Translations under genes and position numbers: made by a program
In this document: piece after piece, positions 3,798-38,134 of the stretch
Position numbering within the stretch: position 1 is the stretch's first letter
How the letters are laid out: each line of letters begins with the position of its first letter
Notes under the pieces: model-generated
The model's input: the letters and a program-made list of their open reading frames with translations, nothing else
Databases searched by the model: none
What the model was told of the DNA's origin: nothing
Source of the DNA: Prorocentrum cordatum
Lineage: Eukaryota; Sar; Dinophyceae; Prorocentrales; Prorocentraceae
Reading direction: 5' to 3'
DNA: 64,000 nucleotides
Assembly: GCA_963575745.1 (NCBI GenBank)
Contig: CAUYUJ010016147.1
Span: 98,501-162,500 of the forward strand

Positions 3798-3852
3798 GGG
3801 GGAGGAGGAGGAGGAGGAGGAGGAGGAGGAGGAGGAGGAGGAGGAGGAGGAT
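3798..3852. repeat. (GGA)n microsatellite
   Basis: Near-pure GGA tract. The 470 bp that follow hold no recognisable gene, but contain an inverted repeat of 24 bp with one mismatch (4129-4152 and 4203-4226, core CCTGCCCGCACCC). Confidence 0.85.
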
Positions 3853-4323
3853 TTAGAAAGAAACTGGCACGGAGGGAGCGGGGTGGGAGGGATCGACGGT
3901 CGACCCTCCATCCGGAGGACATCGCGACGGCGTCGGCCTTCAAGGCCGAGGCCATGGGCGAGCCCCACTTCGAGATGCTGGTGGGGGCGCTGGCAGATTT
4001 GGAAGAGGGCGTTTCGTGACAAAGTGTCATTGGTCGTCGTCGCCGTCGCCCGCACCGTCTGGACCTTCCTGGGTTGTGGGAGGGAGGTGTTCGCACTTCC
4101 CAGAGCAGTTCAGAGATCGGGGAGGCCCTGCCCGCACCCGTGTTCGCACCCACATCCCCACCAGCCATCATCGATACACTCGACGATGCGCCTGGGAGAG
4201 GGAGGTGCGAACATGGGTGCGGGCAGGGGGGCGGGCCCCCACTGGCTCCTCGCACTCGGGTTCGGCTTCCAACTTTTCCGTGGGCGGCGGCCCCTTCGTG
4301 GGCGCTGGGGGGCTTCGACTCTT

Positions 4324-7789: not shown

Positions 7790-8547
7790 GTCATAATCAT
7801 CATCATCAGCAGCATCAGAGCACTCCCCAAAGGGCTTGCATGAAGGTCCCCCCATCAGAGCACTCCCCTAAGGGCTTGCATAGGAGGCAACATGTCTTAA
7901 ATCGATTAAGAACATGTTGCGCGTGCGCCTGCAGAGGCCCCCCCGTTTTGGCTTCCATGAATCGTGTCACTCTTCAGGGCTTCCATAAAAAGTGACACTC
8001 TCCAGGCCTTCCCATCAGGGCACTCCCCAAAGGGCTTGCATGAAGGCCCCCCCCATCAGAGCACTCCCCTAAGGGCTTGCATAGGAGGCAACATCATTTA
8101 AAACGATTAAGAACATGTTGCGCGTGCGCCTGCAGAGGCCCCCCCGTTTTGGCGTCCACAAAAATGTCACTCTTCAGGGCTTGCCTAGAATAGCCCTCCC
8201 CCCTCAGGGCCTCAGGGCTTGCGTCGAAGTGACCCTCCCCGCTTAGGGCTTGCACAGACTTCTGAGCTTGCATAGAAGTGGTTTCCCTCTGGGCTTACAT
8301 AAAGGAGCCCATCCAATCAGTGCTTGCAGTCAGCGCCCTCTTCTCAGGGCTCGCAAAACAAAAAAACAGAGGGCCCTCAGAAGATTCCGCTCCCAAGGTC
8401 ACAATCGTGCTCTCGCTCGCTGGCACTGCAAGGGTTCCTCCAAAAGCCATTTTGGCTCCAGGCTTCCGTTCCAGAGCGAGCCTGCCGGCCTAGTGTCCCT
8501 TGCCCAGGGGCCTTGGGGGCCCACGTCTCGGCAGCGCCTGGTTTCAG
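7611..8547 (+). other. Intron 1 (GT-AG) with CAT microsatellite and duplication
   Basis: Begins GTGAGC and ends TGGTTTCAG. It contains a CAT/CAC tract (7703-7812) and two copies of a 203-bp segment (7855-8057 and 8058-8260) carrying the GCACTCCCCTAAGGGCTTGC motif and the dispersed repeat described at 3609. A DinoSL-like stretch lies at 8439-8461. The motif TGCCCAGGGGCCTTGGGG at 8501-8518 is shared with intron 2. Confidence 0.5.
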
Positions 8548-9224
8548 CGCCATGCCTGGCGCGGCGTCGAAGATGAAGAAGGATGCTCCCGCCGCGAGCC
8601 AGCAGCCCAGCAGCAGGGCGAAGGTCAATGCAAAAAAAGGCACCCCCTTTGACTCCAAGGGCAAGCCGACGAAGGGCTCCAAGAAGGATAAGGAGACGAG
8701 CCCCGCAGAGCCTGAGAACGCGTGGGCGCATGCGCCCCCGCACACCTGCCAGGCGTGCGTGCAGACCACCCACGATATCGACAGGGACAGCGACCCGTCG
8801 AACAAGTACTTCCTGCGCTGGCATAAGACTTGGATGAACGCCGCGGGCATCCTCCTCCCTGGGGGCAGTGAATGCTCGAGGTGCTTTGACACTCGCAGGC
8901 GCTACTTCGACGAGACGTTCACTTCCCTCATGCAGAAGCGCCAGGAGAACCAGGATTTAGACAACCACTACTACGATCTCAGGCGCGACAGGGCGAGCGG
9001 CGGGACCAAGTTCAAGGACCAGCAGAAGATGAAGGTCGACCAGTGGGTGAGCAAGAAGAAGGAGGAGTTCGACGAGGATTTCATCGAGGGGACTTGGATG
9101 GAGCTGTACGCGTTTGCCGACCAGAGGCGCATCCAGGGGTTCAAGAACGAGGACGATCTCGTGGAGGTGATTAAGTCCAAGTGGCCGCACTTCAGGGTGG
9201 CCTTCAACAAAGCTGGAATTCTAG
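8548..9224 (+). CDS. Exon 2: Cys4 zinc-binding-like module
   Basis: The frame is entered with phase 2 from exon 1; its first ATG, at 8552, could alternatively be the true start. Counting from that ATG, residues 1-55 are Lys/Ala/Ser-rich and probably disordered. C66-x2-C69 (HTCQACV) and C108-x2-C111 (SECSRCFDTRRRYF) form a likely Cys4 zinc site around an aromatic-rich segment (NKYFLRWHKTWMNAAGILLP). A charged helical region follows (KMKVDQWVSKKKEEFDEDF, then GTWMELYAFAD). The exon leaves at CTAG|GCCGCG in phase 1. Role unknown; a nucleic-acid or protein-binding role would fit but is inference. Confidence 0.62.
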
Positions 9225-14350: not shown

Positions 14351-14714
14351 CATGGGGGCCGTAATGGTATTGTTGTATGCTTGGCCCAAGATCGCGGGGG
14401 TGGATGCTGTTAGTACAGCAACATGTACACTTGCAGGAGCATGTGCCTACAAATATTTATGAGCGTATTGAATAGCATCAGAAATGCACCCAAGTAAACA
14501 CCCATCCATGCACCCCCCCTCCCCCCCCCAAAACCCATTTCAGAACATACAGAACTTGAATATACAACGGCAATGTGGCCCTCGGAAGCATTGCGATGGC
14601 CTCAAAAGGTGTTGACGCAGTGTGATTGCTGCCCAGTGCTCTGAATGTCAAAGTGATGAAATTCAAACAAGCGCGGGTAAACGGCGGGAGTAACTACGAC
14701 TCTCTTAAGGTAGT

Positions 14715-14762
<48 letters not shown>

Positions 14763-18988: not shown

Positions 18989-19135
18989 TTACGTCGGGCC
19001 TGTCCCTCCACAGGAGGGGTATTCCAAAATAGTAACAAAATATAGTCTGGGGGCGATTTTTTCGAATAGTTGTGTGTTTGACGATCTCCCATTTGTCCAC
19101 CAACATCCACCCGTAGGGGGGCATGCCCGACCCAA
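18989..19135. mobile_element. MITE-A, copy 2
   Basis: 147 bp with termini TTACGTCGGGCCTGTCCCTC and the complementary GGCATGCCCGACCCAA. The flanks CTCTCGAT and CCCTAGAT agree at 6 of 8 bases, fitting an old 8-bp target duplication. Confidence 0.8.
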
Positions 19136-19537: not shown

Positions 19538-19757
19538 TCTCCCCGACTTGGGGCCGCCGCTGAAAATTCGCACGCTTCTCGTTGGACCGATGGCGTGCGA
19601 CGTGGTGCCGCCGCTTCGCTCCGCACACGGGCGTCTCCGGCATCGGAGCAGCCCCCGGAAGGGCGACAGCGCGCATTGAGGGGGGCCTTCCTGGGGGGGA
19701 TCGCCTTACAGCCAAGTTGGGCCTGTCCCTCTACAGGAGGAATGTTCAAAGGTAGTC

Positions 19758-19779
19758 AAAAACATAGTCTGTGGACGAT
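19758..19779. repeat. LINE target-site duplication, left copy
   Basis: ACATAGTCTGTGGACGAT preceded by four A. Identical to 24665-24686. The certain part is 17-18 bp, because the leading A run cannot be separated from the poly(A) tail on the right. Confidence 0.92.
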
Positions 19780-19800
19780 CCGTAGCCATTTTGGCTCAAG
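19779..19800 (+). other. Dinoflagellate spliced leader (DinoSL) sequence
   Basis: T followed by CCGTAGCCATTTTGGCTCAA and G: all 22 positions of the conserved dinoflagellate leader, which is added in trans to mRNA 5' ends. The first T coincides with the last base of the target duplication. It lies exactly at the LINE 5' boundary, with no SL-gene donor (no GT after CAAG; TTCGAAACGC follows). It is therefore a reverse-transcribed mRNA end and not an SL RNA gene. Confidence 0.95.
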
Positions 19801-19927
19801 TTCGAAACGCGCGGCCTGGCGCTTCGAGCTTGGTCGCAGCTGAAGGCCTGGCTCGAGGGCTGCTGCCCTTCCAGGAACGCTCAGCTTGATTTCAGGCAAC
19901 AACATCCCCAGTCTCACGCACCCGCGG

Positions 19928-20887
19928 ATGGCGCATGAGGCAGCTCCCGAGTGGGCTCGTTCGATTCTGGCTTCGGTGACGGGCATCGACGCAAAGCTCT
20001 CGTCGTTCCAGGTCGAGATCACGGCGTCTGTCACGGAGATGCGCTCGGACTACGGCCAGCTAGCCGCGAGGATGAACATCTTGGAGGCGAGCATGGAGCA
20101 GTATCAGTCGAGTGAGGATGTCATGGCCGACATTTCCGCGGAGGCTGAACGTCAGGTAAGGATGCAGAAGCTCGAGTCCATGGTCCAGAAGCTAGAGAGC
20201 CAGATCAACGACACGCCAGCAGACGGTGGACCTCCGCCACGGCGTCGTCGTGCACTCAGCCCCGCATCTACACGCTCTACTGGCATTTCATCAGCAGATG
20301 GTGCGATGGGATCTTCGTCACAGGAGGGAGCCGCTCGTCTTGTACTGCTTGGATTTCCACGGCCGCGCATGCAGGCCACACTCCGACGAGCGGCGGAAGT
20401 GGTACGTCACCGCTGCATGCCCACTCACTCGCAGACATCGGTGGTGATCAAAGCGTTCGACCTCAATAGGAAGGCGATATTCGAGTTCAATTCAGCATCG
20501 GCAGCGTCGGATTTCCTTAGCAATTTCCAGAAGATCGAAGGCGAGCTTCAGTTTCCCGACCCCAAAGGCGGACATTTCGTGCTCAAAGTCCGCAGAGACC
20601 TCAAGGTCAAAGATCGTCGTCTTTTCCTCGCAATGGGCAAGCTCAGACAGAAGCTCGAGGCACTGCTCAATGGCAGGTTCACGGTTGGCTCGAACGGACT
20701 CGGCGGCGACGTCTACATTCTGCGAGGGGAGGAGGACCCTGTTCAGTGTGCACACGTGACGGTACTTGAGGGGGTGAATGATGTCCAGGTTGAATTCACT
20801 GACTCCACTTTGACGGAGTTTGGCATTCTGGCAGACAAAGCCAGCCTGATGGATGCGGCTCAGGTCGCAATGAGACGGCCCTTTTGA
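19928..20887 (+). CDS. LINE ORF1, nucleic-acid-binding chaperone-like protein
   Basis: 319 residues from ATG 19928 (MAHEAAPEWARSILASVTGI) to TGA 20885-20887. Residues 15 to about 100 are heptad-like and probably form a coiled coil (AARMNILEASMEQYQ, MQKLESMVQKLESQI). An Arg/Pro/Ser-rich linker follows (PPPRRRRALSPAST). The C-terminal 180 residues (ARLVLLGFPRPRMQATLRRA, VVIKAFDLNRKAIFEF) look like an RRM-like fold plus C-terminal domain, as in L1-type ORF1 proteins. By analogy it would coat the element RNA and assist target-primed reverse transcription. The frame can be extended upstream to 19886 without an ATG. The 5' untranslated region after the leader is about 127 nt. The stop is followed within 190 nt by ORF2. 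The RRM assignment is by appearance only. Confidence 0.85.
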   Translation: MAHEAAPEWARSILASVTGIDAKLSSFQVEITASVTEMRSDYGQLAARMNILEASMEQYQSSEDVMADISAEAERQVRMQKLESMVQKLESQINDTPADGGPPPRRRRALSPASTRSTGISSADGAMGSSSQEGAARLVLLGFPRPRMQATLRRAAEVVRHRCMPTHSQTSVVIKAFDLNRKAIFEFNSASAASDFLSNFQKIEGELQFPDPKGGHFVLKVRRDLKVKDRRLFLAMGKLRQKLEALLNGRFTVGSNGLGGDVYILRGEEDPVQCAHVTVLEGVNDVQVEFTDSTLTEFGILADKASLMDAAQVAMRRPF

Positions 20888-21071
20888 GCGTGCACGCAGC
20901 AGCACTGACAGAGCGGCCAGGCACTCGCTTCCTGTTGACTGTCTTTTTCCCGTTTCTCCCTCCCCCCCCCCCTCCTCCACCGACACTACGGATGATACGT
21001 CTGACAGCTCGGACACGGATGACATTACGGATATTACGGATCTCCCCTTCTCTCATCGGCGCCCCTTCTCG

Positions 21072-24000
21072 ATGGTCACGTGGAATGCCGCTGCTCTTTT
21101 TGCTTCTGCCAGGTATGGAAGGGGAGTTGGCGAGGGCTCGCTATCGTAAATTCTTGCAGTTGTGTGAACGGTATGACATTGTGTGTATTCAGGAATGTCA
21201 TGGGCATGAGGGGGATATCGCTTGCCTGAAGCAGCAGTTGCGTGGGTGCCACATTGGAGCTACGATGCGTGCGTCGGCTGCTGCAGGGGGCACAGTTACC
21301 GTAATTAGTGCTGCGCTCGCTTCTCAGTTCTCTTCTATTCGGCATCGTCCTTTGTGTGAGGGGCGAGTGCTCCTATCTCATTGTGTCGGTCCGCATGGTG
21401 CGCTCGTTATCATCAATGTTCACATGCCTAACACATGTCATGGTCACCAGCAGTATAGGAGAGTGCTCCGCGCGGTGTGTTGTGCGTTACCAGCGGCCAC
21501 GTCTTGTTTCAACCTCGTAGGTGGGGACTGGAATTTCGCGCTGGAGGAGGAGGGGAGGCAGTCTGATGACGGGCATTGGGAGTCTGGGGACAGATGGCAC
21601 ACCACTCTTTTCGGCACGAAGTGTGCACGTTGGGCCGAGCTCTACCAGCCCGATCCGACACGATACGGCTGGGGCAACGACGGCAGCTCCCACACGGCTC
21701 GTCTCGACCGAATTTACACTGATCTTCTTTGTGCCCTCCTCACCGACCTCACTCTGCAGGCAAAGGTGTGGAGCCGACCGAAGCGGCATGAGCCGTCGGA
21801 TCATCTTCCGGTCGCAGTCTCCTTACAGGCCTTCCACCCCAAGGAGTCCTCGTCGGTCCCAGTGTGGCTCAGCAAGACCCCCATCTACAAAGATATTGTC
21901 TCGGATGGCCTCCTACAGATCCCCGCTGAGTGGTGTCCTCTTCGGCGGCTTGAAGCTGCAAAATCGGTCATGCACGACGCTGTTAGGGCCGCCAAGCGCG
22001 CACTCGCACATAAACATGCTCGCACTCCTGAAGAACAACATTTCTGGGCTATGCGTGCTGTGCGTGGGTGGCGTACAGGGAACTTCGACTTGGTACGCAG
22101 TGCGATCTGCGCGCTCCCGCTTCTGTTGCAAATCTTTGATGTGGACCGTGAGGAGTGCACGGACTACGCTCGTCTTTGCGAATTTGCCAGGTCGTGCCAT
22201 TACTCTGTGTTGGAGGCCCAACTTAACCAGGCGGTTGCAACGACTACGGAGGGTGAGGAGGAGGAGGCTCGGAGGCTGCAGGCCATCTCACGTGCCCGGT
22301 TTAAGATGCAGAGTTGGCGCAAAATGCGACGCCGTGTGCACCTCTCGGGCGTTCTTGCTGATGACGGCTCCCCATGTGCGACGGTTGAGGAGTCTGGCAA
22401 CGCTCTTGCGCGGTACTGGGAGGGGGTATTTGCTGCAAAGGAGGAGGATATGTCGGGGTGGGAGGATTTCCTTGTGCACTGCCAATCTGTACAGCCGCTG
22501 AGTGAGGTGACACAGTGGAGGGTCGAGCGGGATGACTTTATCCGTGCCATCCGTGCAAAATCCAACACGGCCCCTGGTCCTGATGGTATCCCTTACAGCT
22601 GTTGGCAGAATGACCCTGCCGCCAATATCCTTTTTGATGTATATGAGTACCTTTACGACACGAACAGCACAGATTTCCTTATTGACATGCAGCACGTTCT
22701 CCTCACCTTCCTTCCCAAGGGTAATCAGGACTCCGACGTGGGCACAGCCGTTTGTCGTGATGCCTGCAAGACGCGGCCACTGGCGCTTGCTGACACATCG
22801 TGCAAGGTGCTGTCGGCAGCGATGGGCTTGCCGCTTGCATCGGTTGCGAAGTCGACAGTTCATGTGATGCAGTCGGGAGGTGTCGGTGGGAGGAGTATCT
22901 TATCTAACGTGGTGGAGGCGGAGGAATGGGGGCTATCTCAATGGCTTCCTGATAAGCCGCGCTCGGCACTCTTGCTCACCGACTTCGCGGCTGCGTTCCC
23001 TTCCCTTTTCGTCAGCTGGATCCTCACTGTCCTTAGTACTATGTCTGTGCCCACTCCCACCATCTGCTTCTTTGCCGCGCTATACACTGACAACACTGCG
23101 ACGGTCACTTTTTCTGGGCGGCGCCTGCGGCGCATCAAGATTGAACGAGGTGCACGGCAGGGGGACCCGACTAGCATGTGCCTTTTTGCGTTAGCGCTCG
23201 ACCCGATATTGCGCTGGCTTCTGCATAAAGGTAGCACGCACATCGACAGAGGGCTGGGGCATGCGGATGATCTGCTATTTGGGGTCTGCGATATCCATAC
23301 TGGGCTGGTGCCTATCCTCGTGCTCCTGGGGACCCTGGACAATGCTATCGGTCTCCGGCTTAACTACTCTAAGTGCCAACTGGTTATTACGGGTGGGCTG
23401 ACGTGTGATGAGGTCTCGGGTTGGCTGCAGGCTCTAGGGGCGCCCTTTGAGTACCTCCAAGTTGGGCGTCATGCCCGCTACCTGGGGGTGGAAATCTGTC
23501 CCGACGGGGGAGCTCATGTCTGGAGGGAGGCCATCGACAAATTCCAACAGCGCGTTCGTGCCCTTAGGAATCTTGGGCTCGGGCTTGCTATGACCATCGT
23601 CATGTTTACTTCCACTTGCTTGTCGGTGCTTGGGTATCTATTGCAATTCTATGCTCCGACTCCAGAGGTGTACCATGTGTATGATGCATCGCTTCAGTTG
23701 CTCGCCGCCGCACCGCGCTATTCTTTCTCTACCAAGATGCTCTGTGGTCTCAAGGAACTGGGGCTGACAACGGAGTTCCCTGCACTGAGACAGTACGCTC
23801 GTGCGGTGCAGTTGCGCGCGGCTATCACTTGCCCTGCATTTGCTCAGGTTAAGGCGCGGCTGGAAGCCGCCACCTCGACGGAACGGATACGGAACGGGAT
23901 GGAGGATGGGGTATGCATTGCTAGGACACTGACTGGGTGGTGGAGGGACTCTCTTGTGCGACAGATGTGCATTGTGTGCGACAGCTGCCAGCAGATCACT

Positions 24001-24654
24001 GATGCGGTCCCTCACGATTTCCCTAAGAAGAAGCTCCAGCGTCGTTTCCTGAAGGCCCTCATTGCTCGGGACCCCGTGGACCTCGCTGACTGTCCTGAAA
24101 CTGGGCTCCTCCGCAGGATCTCCTCCTGGCTCCCTGCCCCCTGCCCCATCGAGGTTGCCCGCATGATCAGTAAAATACGTTGCACGACGAAACGTACGAA
24201 GATGTATATTGGGTTGGCTCCGTTGCGAATCGCATGCCGTGGTGTCTGTACTACTTCGCGTTTCCACACGACTTCTCGGGGTTGCGTCTTTGGGTGTGTG
24301 TCTGTGGTCCCTGGGGCGGACCTCGATGATATGCAACACTACGTTGTATGCACACGTTTCCAGGAGATTGCAAGGATCTGGCTGGGTGCGATAGTGGATT
24401 GTGCCGACACTATTCCGATCTCCTCTCTCCTCCTCCTTACAGTGCACCCGTCGGTGGAAGCAGTGCTGTGCTGCGCGTCATTTTGCGAAGCCTTTTTACA
24501 CACTCACTTTCAGAAGAGGGTTGGCTGTGATGCCGACCCCGCGAGACTCTTCGAGGCGCGCATACGCCTCCACTGCAGGCGTCACCGCGCCTTGCAGGCA
24601 GCCTGGACAAAAGTCACCGCCGCGAGGCTCGCTGTGGGGCAATCAGCTGGCTAG
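21072..24654 (+). CDS. LINE ORF2: endonuclease-reverse transcriptase, with frameshift
   Basis: Main frame open from 20884 to TAG 24652-24654. Endonuclease (exonuclease-endonuclease-phosphatase fold): IQECHG at 21187, GGDWNF at 21522, RLDRIY at 21700, SDHLPV at 21796. Reverse transcriptase: NTAPGPDGIP at 22564, RPLALADTSCKV near 22780, LLTDFAAAFPS with the first catalytic Asp at 22981, RQGDP at 23155, HADD at 23260, YLGVEI near 23480. C-terminal knuckle C-x3-C-x13-H-x3-C at 24283-24351. The first conserved endonuclease block, MVTWNAAALFAS, starts at ATG 21072 but in another frame. It reaches a stop soon after, so a frameshift lies between about 21105 and 21140. I start the gene at that ATG. 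It would nick target DNA and copy the element RNA at the nick. No RNase H domain was seen. Confidence 0.92.
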
Positions 24655-24664
24655 CGGGGGAAAA

Positions 24665-24686
24665 AAAAACATAGTCTGTGGACGAT
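24665..24686. repeat. LINE target-site duplication, right copy
   Basis: Second copy of ACATAGTCTGTGGACGAT directly after the poly(A). After it the MITE-A sequence resumes (GTTTAGACTGTGTTTGAGC). Confidence 0.92.
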
Positions 24687-25047
24687 GTTTAGACTGTGTT
24701 TGAGCATTTGGCGTGTATTTTGGGGTATGTTCAACTTGTCCTCCAAAATCCCCCTCTGTAGGGGGACAGGCCCGACCTATAGCGTGCATCTCGGAAATCG
24801 ATGTTGCACGCTGCCTTTCCAATGCCAACCCCCATGAGAGAACCCTGGAGGCCTCGCGCGTTGAGATAGCATCGAATCATCCAGTCCACGCGCCCGCTCC
24901 GTAAGACCTGTGCCGACGTTCGCGCGGCGATGCTCCGCCGCAAGTCCGACGCGCACCCGGCGCAATCCTGACGCGGCTCCGACGTGCATTTGGGTCTCGG
25001 GTTGCCGCGCGAGGCCTCCAGGGTTCTCATCGCAAGAACCTCAGGAG

Positions 25048-37984: not shown

Positions 37985-38134
37985 TTGAGTCGGGCCTGTC
38001 CCTCCACAGGAGGAATATCCAAAAGTAGTCCAAAGATAGTCTGGGGACGATTCTTTGCATATTTTCTTGGTCACTCTTGAACACGTTCATTTGTCCTCGA
38101 AAATCCCCCATGTAGGGGGACAGGCCCGACTTAA
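37985..38134. mobile_element. MITE-A, copy 4
   Basis: 150 bp with termini TTGAGTCGGGCCTGTCCCTC and GGGGGACAGGCCCGACTTAA. The flanks GGTGAGCG (37977-37984) and GGTTAGCG (38135-38142) agree at 7 of 8. The interior keeps the ATAGTCTGGGGACGAT segment used as LINE target in copy 3. Confidence 0.87.

Follow-up and report, generated by a model that had tools for sequence, protein, structure and literature searches.

A LINE retrotransposon of Prorocentrum cordatum with the dinoflagellate spliced leader at its genomic 5' end

Introduction

Dinoflagellate mRNAs generally carry a 22-nt spliced leader (DinoSL), which is added to them by trans-splicing. Here, we ask how a complete copy of this leader came to stand at the very start of a LINE in the genome of Prorocentrum cordatum, and whether it belonged to the RNA that was mobilized. 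The element lies in a 64,000-nt stretch of contig CAUYUJ010016147.1 (positions 98,501 to 162,500, forward strand), referred to as the window; other loci are given by L numbers. The question has a general side, as the RNA of a LINE has to keep a 5' promoter or processing signal through every round of insertion, and a product of host RNA processing may fill this place.

The Leader at the Boundary of the Window Element

The 22-nt DinoSL consensus matches window positions 19779–19800 (plus strand) exactly; at up to three mismatches this is the only match in the whole window, and 0/100 shuffled sequences contained any. The element is bounded by 22-bp target-site duplications on the plus strand (AAAAACATAGTCTGTGGACGAT), whose left (19758–19779) and right (24665–24686) copies are identical at 22/22 positions. 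The last T of the left duplication, T19779, is also leader position 1, and leader positions 2–22 (19780–19800, 21 nt) are unambiguous. At the other end, the element closes with CGGGGG and A4 (24655–24664, plus strand), leaving a 3'UTR of 6 nt. The initial annotation had placed all 22 leader positions directly against one duplication and a poly(A) tract against the other: the leader match and the duplication were confirmed exactly, with position 1 shared, and an A-tail does adjoin the second duplication, although its length is only A4, or A9 if the A5 of the target is counted. Thus, the window LINE combines a target duplication with an A-rich 3' end, and its 5' leader lies within the target duplications, as in a DinoSL-tagged retrocopy. 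It was also considered as a spliced leader (SL) RNA gene, in which a GT donor follows the leader exon; the window leader is followed by TT, and this candidate was rejected.

Two paralogous copies of the target repeat (18993–19132 and 37988–38133, plus strand) cross the insertion point with neither LINE nor leader, which shows that the leader arrived together with the LINE. An apparent bottom-strand nick in a T-tract, TTTTT/G, can be read from the sequence at the insertion, and would be as expected for reverse transcription primed by an A-tail. The target itself is a MITE-like palindrome, a repeat with GTTGGGCCTGTCCCTC-like ends (19716–19779 and 24665–24776, in addition to the two empty copies).

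Two further features of the window are recorded here. A degenerate leader at 8441–8461 (4/21 mismatches, with 0.03 such matches expected in the window) is followed 90 nt beyond by an ATG at 8552 that opens a long frame, and is probably a retrogene relict. A fragment of eukaryotic LSU rRNA occupies 14576–14761 (model positions 2135–2330, 208 bits).

Structure of the Element

On the plus strand, the leader is followed by a 127-nt 5'UTR (19801–19927) with no ATG ahead of ORF1, by ORF1 itself (19928–20887, 319 codons, open in the window copy), and by the main ORF2 frame (20992–24654, counted from the first ATG after ORF1 in a frame open from 20803), which covers an endonuclease, a reverse transcriptase (RT), and a C-terminal Cys/His motif. 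Pfam matches to Exo_endo_phos (E 1.4e-7) and RVT_1 (E 2.1e-13), both above the curated cut-offs, identify an APE-like endonuclease and an RT, whose catalytic residues D727, D822, and D823 are invariant in alignment A1, with HADD in place of the YADD motif. The endonuclease N-terminus (MVTWNAAALFASA, 21072–21149, plus strand) starts with MVTWNA in a frame that differs from the remainder of ORF2, so that the frame is disrupted at least once in this copy, unless the assembly contains an indel. ORF1 had no match in Pfam, and a protein search returned two relatives of it, namely a transcriptome-derived protein (92%) and a homologue at 29%. A search of a viral contig collection for relatives of ORF1 and ORF2 confirmed none. 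For both ORF1 and a host gene, the nearest protein relatives (P0023, P0027) belong to a transcriptome assigned to Pyramimonas sp., a finding that points to a dinoflagellate in that culture.

By its predicted proteins, the element is a two-ORF LINE with an APE-type endonuclease and a reverse transcriptase. L1-type LINEs have two ORFs, an APE endonuclease, and poly(A), and the window LINE resembles them in domain order, A-rich tail, target duplication, and apparent T-tract nick; it differs in its 5' leader, its short tail, and its RT, the nearest relatives of which are unnamed proteins from sequence databases. The RT matched R2 and L1 alike in the PDB, and the RT tree contained no named L1 references.

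Full-Length Copies Found With a Leader-Free Query

The family, as recovered with window positions 19801–20300 (leader excluded) as a genome query, comprises 40 matches, of which 30 were examined as loci. Full-length 5' ends were found in 13 copies (L034–L046, window included), which cover 498–500 of the 500 query bases; identity is 83–98% in the 12 copies other than the window; L038 and L039 are identical and represent one duplicated locus, so that the 13 copies stand for 12 distinct loci. Immediately ahead of the first query base, every one of the 13 carries the leader or its relict, the outer leader being exact in 12 and having one mismatch in L042. The 800 nt upstream of the loci show no mutual similarity except multi-register repeats and the duplicated pair. 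The initial annotation had predicted that full-length copies would start at the leader, that some would bear tandem relict leaders, and that shared non-leader sequence upstream would speak against its reading; the first prediction was borne out in 13/13 copies (two being the one duplicated locus), the second in 3/13, and no such upstream sequence emerged beyond the repeats and the duplicated pair. The explanation that the leader is an internal or chance match within a LINE extending further upstream, which we regard as having practically no probability, is refuted for this family: the duplication abuts the leader, the flanks of the copies differ, and a match by chance is not to be expected.

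The sequence at the expected 3' end was homologous to the window 3' end in all of the other copies (12/12), and the tails were A-rich. Target duplications were assessed at 12 loci (window included, L039 left out) by comparing the leader side with the tail side against decoys, and the locus's own duplication outscored every decoy in ten; the exceptions, L036 and L041, lie in GAT-type repeats. At these 12 loci, the base adjoining the leader falls inside the best duplication in five and outside it in five, and in two (L035 and L042) two bases fall outside. In L037, L040, L043, L044, and L046, of which L043 lies in a CAT repeat, the T before CCGTAG is outside the best duplication, and the copied RNA thus probably reached leader position 1 (U). 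As judged from the boundaries of the genomic copies, these data show many insertions of leader-bearing RNA of the window LINE family, each type of boundary being represented by target duplications and by A-rich tails.

ORF1 of these copies differs from the window copy at 193/3822, 70/3825, and 961/3825 first, second, and third codon positions, respectively (5.0, 1.8, and 25.1%), and the concentration at third positions indicates lineages under coding constraint; ORF1 ends at a normal stop in 6/13 copies.

Among the 17 other loci examined, 13 share only 56–120 nt of the 5'UTR start. A leader is present in 12 of these (nine exact, and L051–L053 with 2–3 mismatches) and absent from L055, in which the match begins 7 nt from the leader junction. 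The remaining four align only within ORF1, with an exact leader at −172 in L047, a one-mismatch leader at −165 in L054, and none in L049 and L056. Over all 30 loci, no leader with up to four mismatches was found within 1.5 kb upstream in three (L049, L055, and L056). The loci at which the first 56–120 nt of the LINE 5'UTR stand behind a leader, after which the match stops, are L048, L050–L053, L057–L063, L006, and L007. L007 has this 5' module with no LINE ORF found downstream, and downstream of L006 there is only a weak match to the RT profile (6e-9, L033).

Relict Leaders and the Probable Renewal of the 5' End

Three of the 13 full-length copies (L040, L041, and L042) have the structure leader, CCATTTTGGCTCAAG, 5'UTR, that is, a complete leader followed by a relict truncated after leader position 7; the other ten, the window copy among them, carry a single leader. 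The same relict form is described for dinoflagellate genes, in which it is attributed to trans-splicing into the old leader at its position-7 AG, according to the available part of that report (PMC3229502). On a tree built from 2 kb of the 13 copies, with 8/9 inner branches highly supported and a midpoint root, the relict state changes at least two times, a minimum imposed by branches whose support is 95/80 or higher. Under the midpoint root, on which the order of gain and loss depends, the relict copies form a ladder within which a single-leader clade (L044–L046) is nested. Clustering of relicts on the tree is not significant (76/500 shuffles as low), and only the count of changes is used here. 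The easiest reading is a gain followed by a reset, or repeated gains; either history needs leader-bearing parents and new leaders. It is thus strongly implied by the copies that parents with genomic leaders gave rise to daughters with new leaders.

These observations bear on two explanations in which the leader of each copy was not newly trans-spliced. According to the first, which we consider improbable, the leader was captured once and is now ordinary DNA of an element that has an internal promoter. The constant junction in 13 copies and a predicted hairpin that includes leader bases (see below) are compatible with such inheritance. It is opposed by the changes of relict state on the tree, by the association of leaders with LINEs of very different RTs (median identity 21%, 91 pairs), and by the distribution of substitutions: only 1/273 positions differ in the outer leader (21 positions in 13 copies), versus 16/720 in the adjoining 60 nt of the 5'UTR (19801–19860, plus strand; 12 other copies against the window) and 145/801 in the following 67 nt (the same comparison). 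The second explanation, still less credible and in our estimate very improbable, is that the reverse transcriptase jumped from the 5' end of the LINE RNA to SL RNA during insertion. Template switching onto small RNAs is known from mammalian L1, which counts in its favor. Here, however, the joined piece runs to the exact end of the leader exon, with no intron such as that behind the leader of L003 (GT after CAAG), the junction is the same in 13/13 copies, and the relicts are truncated at AG.

We consider it very probable, from the genomic evidence assembled here, that the mobile RNA of this LINE is a trans-spliced mRNA, and that its insertion carries the leader along as the genomic 5' end. This was the central claim of the initial annotation, that a trans-spliced LINE mRNA was reverse-transcribed to its end and inserted, and it is upheld by the leader abutting the duplication, the empty sites, and the 13/13 copies; the cycle of renewed leaders that was suggested along with it gains sequence support from the two or more relict-state changes on a well-supported copy tree.

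The cycle could proceed as follows. LINE RNA would receive the 22-nt DinoSL by trans-splicing and would be reverse-transcribed from its A-tail at the nicked target up to the RNA 5' end; the cDNA would then be inserted, and the leader would become the genomic 5' end. In the next round, AG dinucleotides of the inserted leader could act as trans-splice acceptors. Use of the terminal AG would replace the old leader exactly, presumably the usual outcome (10/13 copies with a single leader), and use of the internal AG at leader position 7 would leave a 15-nt relict (3/13), while later use of the terminal AG of the relict would reset the element to one leader. Both this choice of acceptor AG and the occurrence of new trans-splicing, rather than copying of a DNA leader, at each 5' end are what we infer from the copies. 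The RNA would have its source in read-through from upstream genes or in a promoter within the leader; a TTT(G) motif of DinoSL is a proposed promoter element, according to the portion of the source consulted (PMC6050394). Any benefit of the leader to the LINE could lie, for example, in its cap or in RNA structure; the initial annotation had suggested that the leader could help to cap the bicistronic LINE RNA.

The Conserved 5' Module and a Predicted Hairpin

Leader bases 12–22, together with the start of the 5'UTR, are predicted to pair with 19823–19844, forming a candidate RNA hairpin (19790–19844, plus strand). Across 15 different sequences, a set that leaves out L047, L049, and L054–L056, 351/374 cells pair, versus 0.32–0.50 when the pairing is slid; this count covers 25 pairs, 20 in the leader hairpin and five in a second hairpin further on, and was made in the same alignment from which the structure was derived. 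Two pairs of the leader hairpin change on both sides (U-A/A-U/G-U and G-C/C-G). These paired changes do not prove a role, since the leader side cannot vary by nature. Folding energies of the leader hairpin were not exceptional: the window sequence had a z-score of −1.42, with 19/200 shuffles as good, and five elements compared with mononucleotide-shuffled 5'UTRs had z-scores from −0.36 to −1.66. A hairpin built partly from leader bases is thus suggestive at the level of structure prediction.

What the leader does for the LINE, if anything, can be read in two ways. On the one hand, and tentatively, at somewhat below even probability, the leader may be a working 5' module, that is, a splice acceptor and perhaps a promoter that would regenerate capped, leader-bearing RNA wherever the element lands; a hairpin built in part from the leader would have evolved, several lineages and, by extrapolation, thousands of copies would share the arrangement, and the LINE machinery would be a source of dinoflagellate mRNA recycling. 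On the other hand, it is a real possibility, if not quite an even one, that the leader is a passive tag: since dinoflagellate mRNAs generally carry it, any reverse-transcribed mRNA would bring a leader anew, and neither the added nor the genomic leader would be of use to the LINE. The latter reading is at odds with a role of the leader, but accepts that leader-bearing RNA was inserted. From what is available of the literature, retrogenes that bear this tag and the same truncated relicts are well known (PMC12014239, PMC3229502, PMC6050394), and no sense RT was detected at 7/20 of the genomic leaders sampled below, both of which agree with a leader carried along without function. Against it stand the identical junction in 13/13 copies, the relicts, which indicate that the genomic leader served as acceptor in some rounds, and the conservation of the adjoining 60 nt, which are predicted to pair with the leader, although a benefit is not proven thereby.

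Leaders Genome-Wide and Other LINE Lineages

The 4.13-Gb assembly (21,875 contigs) contains 14,218 exact 21-nt leaders (7,201 + 7,017), and the reversed control pattern occurs 0 times. From 100 listed leaders, numbers 1–8 (with 1.5 kb downstream) and 9–28 (with 7 kb) were analysed, a sample in contig order and not at random. Among the 20 leaders with 7 kb, tblastn at 1e-6 identified a LINE RT downstream of eight, and an iterated RT profile, built partly from these same loci, detected a sense RT at 13, starting at +1.9 to +4.2 kb. Antisense RTs were found within 7 kb downstream at 0/20, and L024 has one antisense RT signal just upstream of its leader. Of the five loci added by the profile, L013, L021, and L022 match Pfam RVT_1 below the curated cut-off (L022 also has RNase H above its cut-off), and L016 and L027 have no Pfam match, their RT signal coming solely from the iterated profile. 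Both RT and endonuclease pass the Pfam cut-off in L014 and L031. Stop-to-stop frames of 1444 to >2300 codons begin inside the leader, or at most 5 nt behind it, in L014, L022, and L031. The RTs of the 13 sampled loci and the window have a median identity of only 21% (91 pairs, some of them short pieces), which indicates that leaders are present in several LINE lineages. Published work takes genomic leaders as a sign of retrogenes; with an RT signal behind 13/20 sampled exact leaders, retrogene counts could come out too high if RTs are not excluded.

Exact tandem relicts occur in 4/28 sampled loci (L007, L012, L017, and L019), L025 has one with a mismatch, and in L021 a second, degenerate leader (four mismatches) lies directly behind the first. 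Only 2/28 sampled leaders are followed by GT, as in an SL gene, and the base before CCGTAG is T in 26/28. The 60 nt upstream of the 28 leaders (L004–L031) are dominated by TCC in 13 cases, GGA in seven, TAT in one, CAT in one, and none of these in six; many genomic leaders thus lie within TCC or GGA microsatellites. At L012, L014, L017, L020, and L030, the upstream repeat type recurs at the presumed 3' end, with no clear poly(A). The (U)CC start of the leader may help its joining to TCC targets. In L026, about 3845–3900 from its leader, a degenerate leader (two mismatches) stands behind a TCC tract at the LINE 3' end, which would fit the arrival of a second element in that microsatellite.

Relation to Known Spliced-Leader Retroelements

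Dinoflagellate retrogenes with DinoSL relicts are established as recycled processed cDNAs, as stated in the accessible portions of several reports (PMC12014239, PMC6050394, PMC3229502; Slamovits and Keeling, 2008, as cited there). They share with the window LINE a genomic leader that heads a reverse-transcribed, trans-spliced mRNA, and relicts cut after position 7 at AG; the window LINE family differs in its fixed junction and its relict-state changes. Moreover, the mRNA mobilized here is, unlike that of retrogenes, the LINE's own, so that the cycle would repeat in its own lineage. The retroelement that mediates dinoflagellate mRNA recycling is called unknown in the sections available, with Ty1/copia favored (PMC6050394, PMC3942190), and a further paper, in what is available of it, reports LINEs and DinoSL relicts next to each other without joining them (PMC8045281). 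In this genome, leader-headed LINEs with duplications and A-rich tails show that leader-bearing RNA is inserted in the LINE manner, which bears on the question of which retroelement recycles trans-spliced mRNAs.

In flatworms, as far as the available text of two reports goes, six SL exons of S. mansoni are merged to transposable elements (PMC5832876), and 597 loci with partial leaders are tied to mobile elements, mainly LTR and LINE (PMC12582326). The proposed origin is the same, that is, reinsertion of trans-spliced retrotransposon transcripts (PMC5832876, PMC12582326); the flatworm cases, with partial leaders or possible assembly chimeras, are offered there as suggestions, whereas the window LINE family is multi-copy and has complete leaders, target duplications, and relicts that were gained or reset, and its host genome contains 14,218 exact leaders. 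The L1Tc/ingi elements of trypanosomatids are likewise LINEs in a spliced-leader host; these are described, in the part of the source consulted, as having the internal promoter Pr77, unspliced transcripts, and a 5' HDV-like ribozyme (PMC4748587). The window LINE differs by its leader and by having no match to any Rfam family, the HDV-like ribozyme included: a search of 19700–20150 gave 0 matches up to E 5. Thus, leader-tagged retrogenes and flatworm retrotransposons have already been published, and no description of leader-headed LINEs in dinoflagellates was found in the literature searched, which lay outside the subscription papers.

Leaders in Viral and Bacterial Contigs

An exact leader scan returned one contig (L001) from the viral contig collection and two (L002 and L003) from the genome contig collection. 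On L001, a giant-virus-like contig (IMG/VR) with AT-rich sequence, a 254-aa gene of higher G+C content at 2767–1790 (minus strand) has an exact DinoSL ahead of it and GGGAAAAAATAAA behind, with a second exact leader 147 nt upstream; by its sequence, it resembles a trans-spliced mRNA of a dinoflagellate that has entered the genome of a virus. L002 belongs to a bacterial bin, and its leader lies close to the contig edge. On L003, the leader (4354–4334, minus strand) is followed by GT after CAAG and lies beside rDNA; it looks like a true SL gene, and the binning of the contig as Dehalococcoidia like eukaryote contamination.
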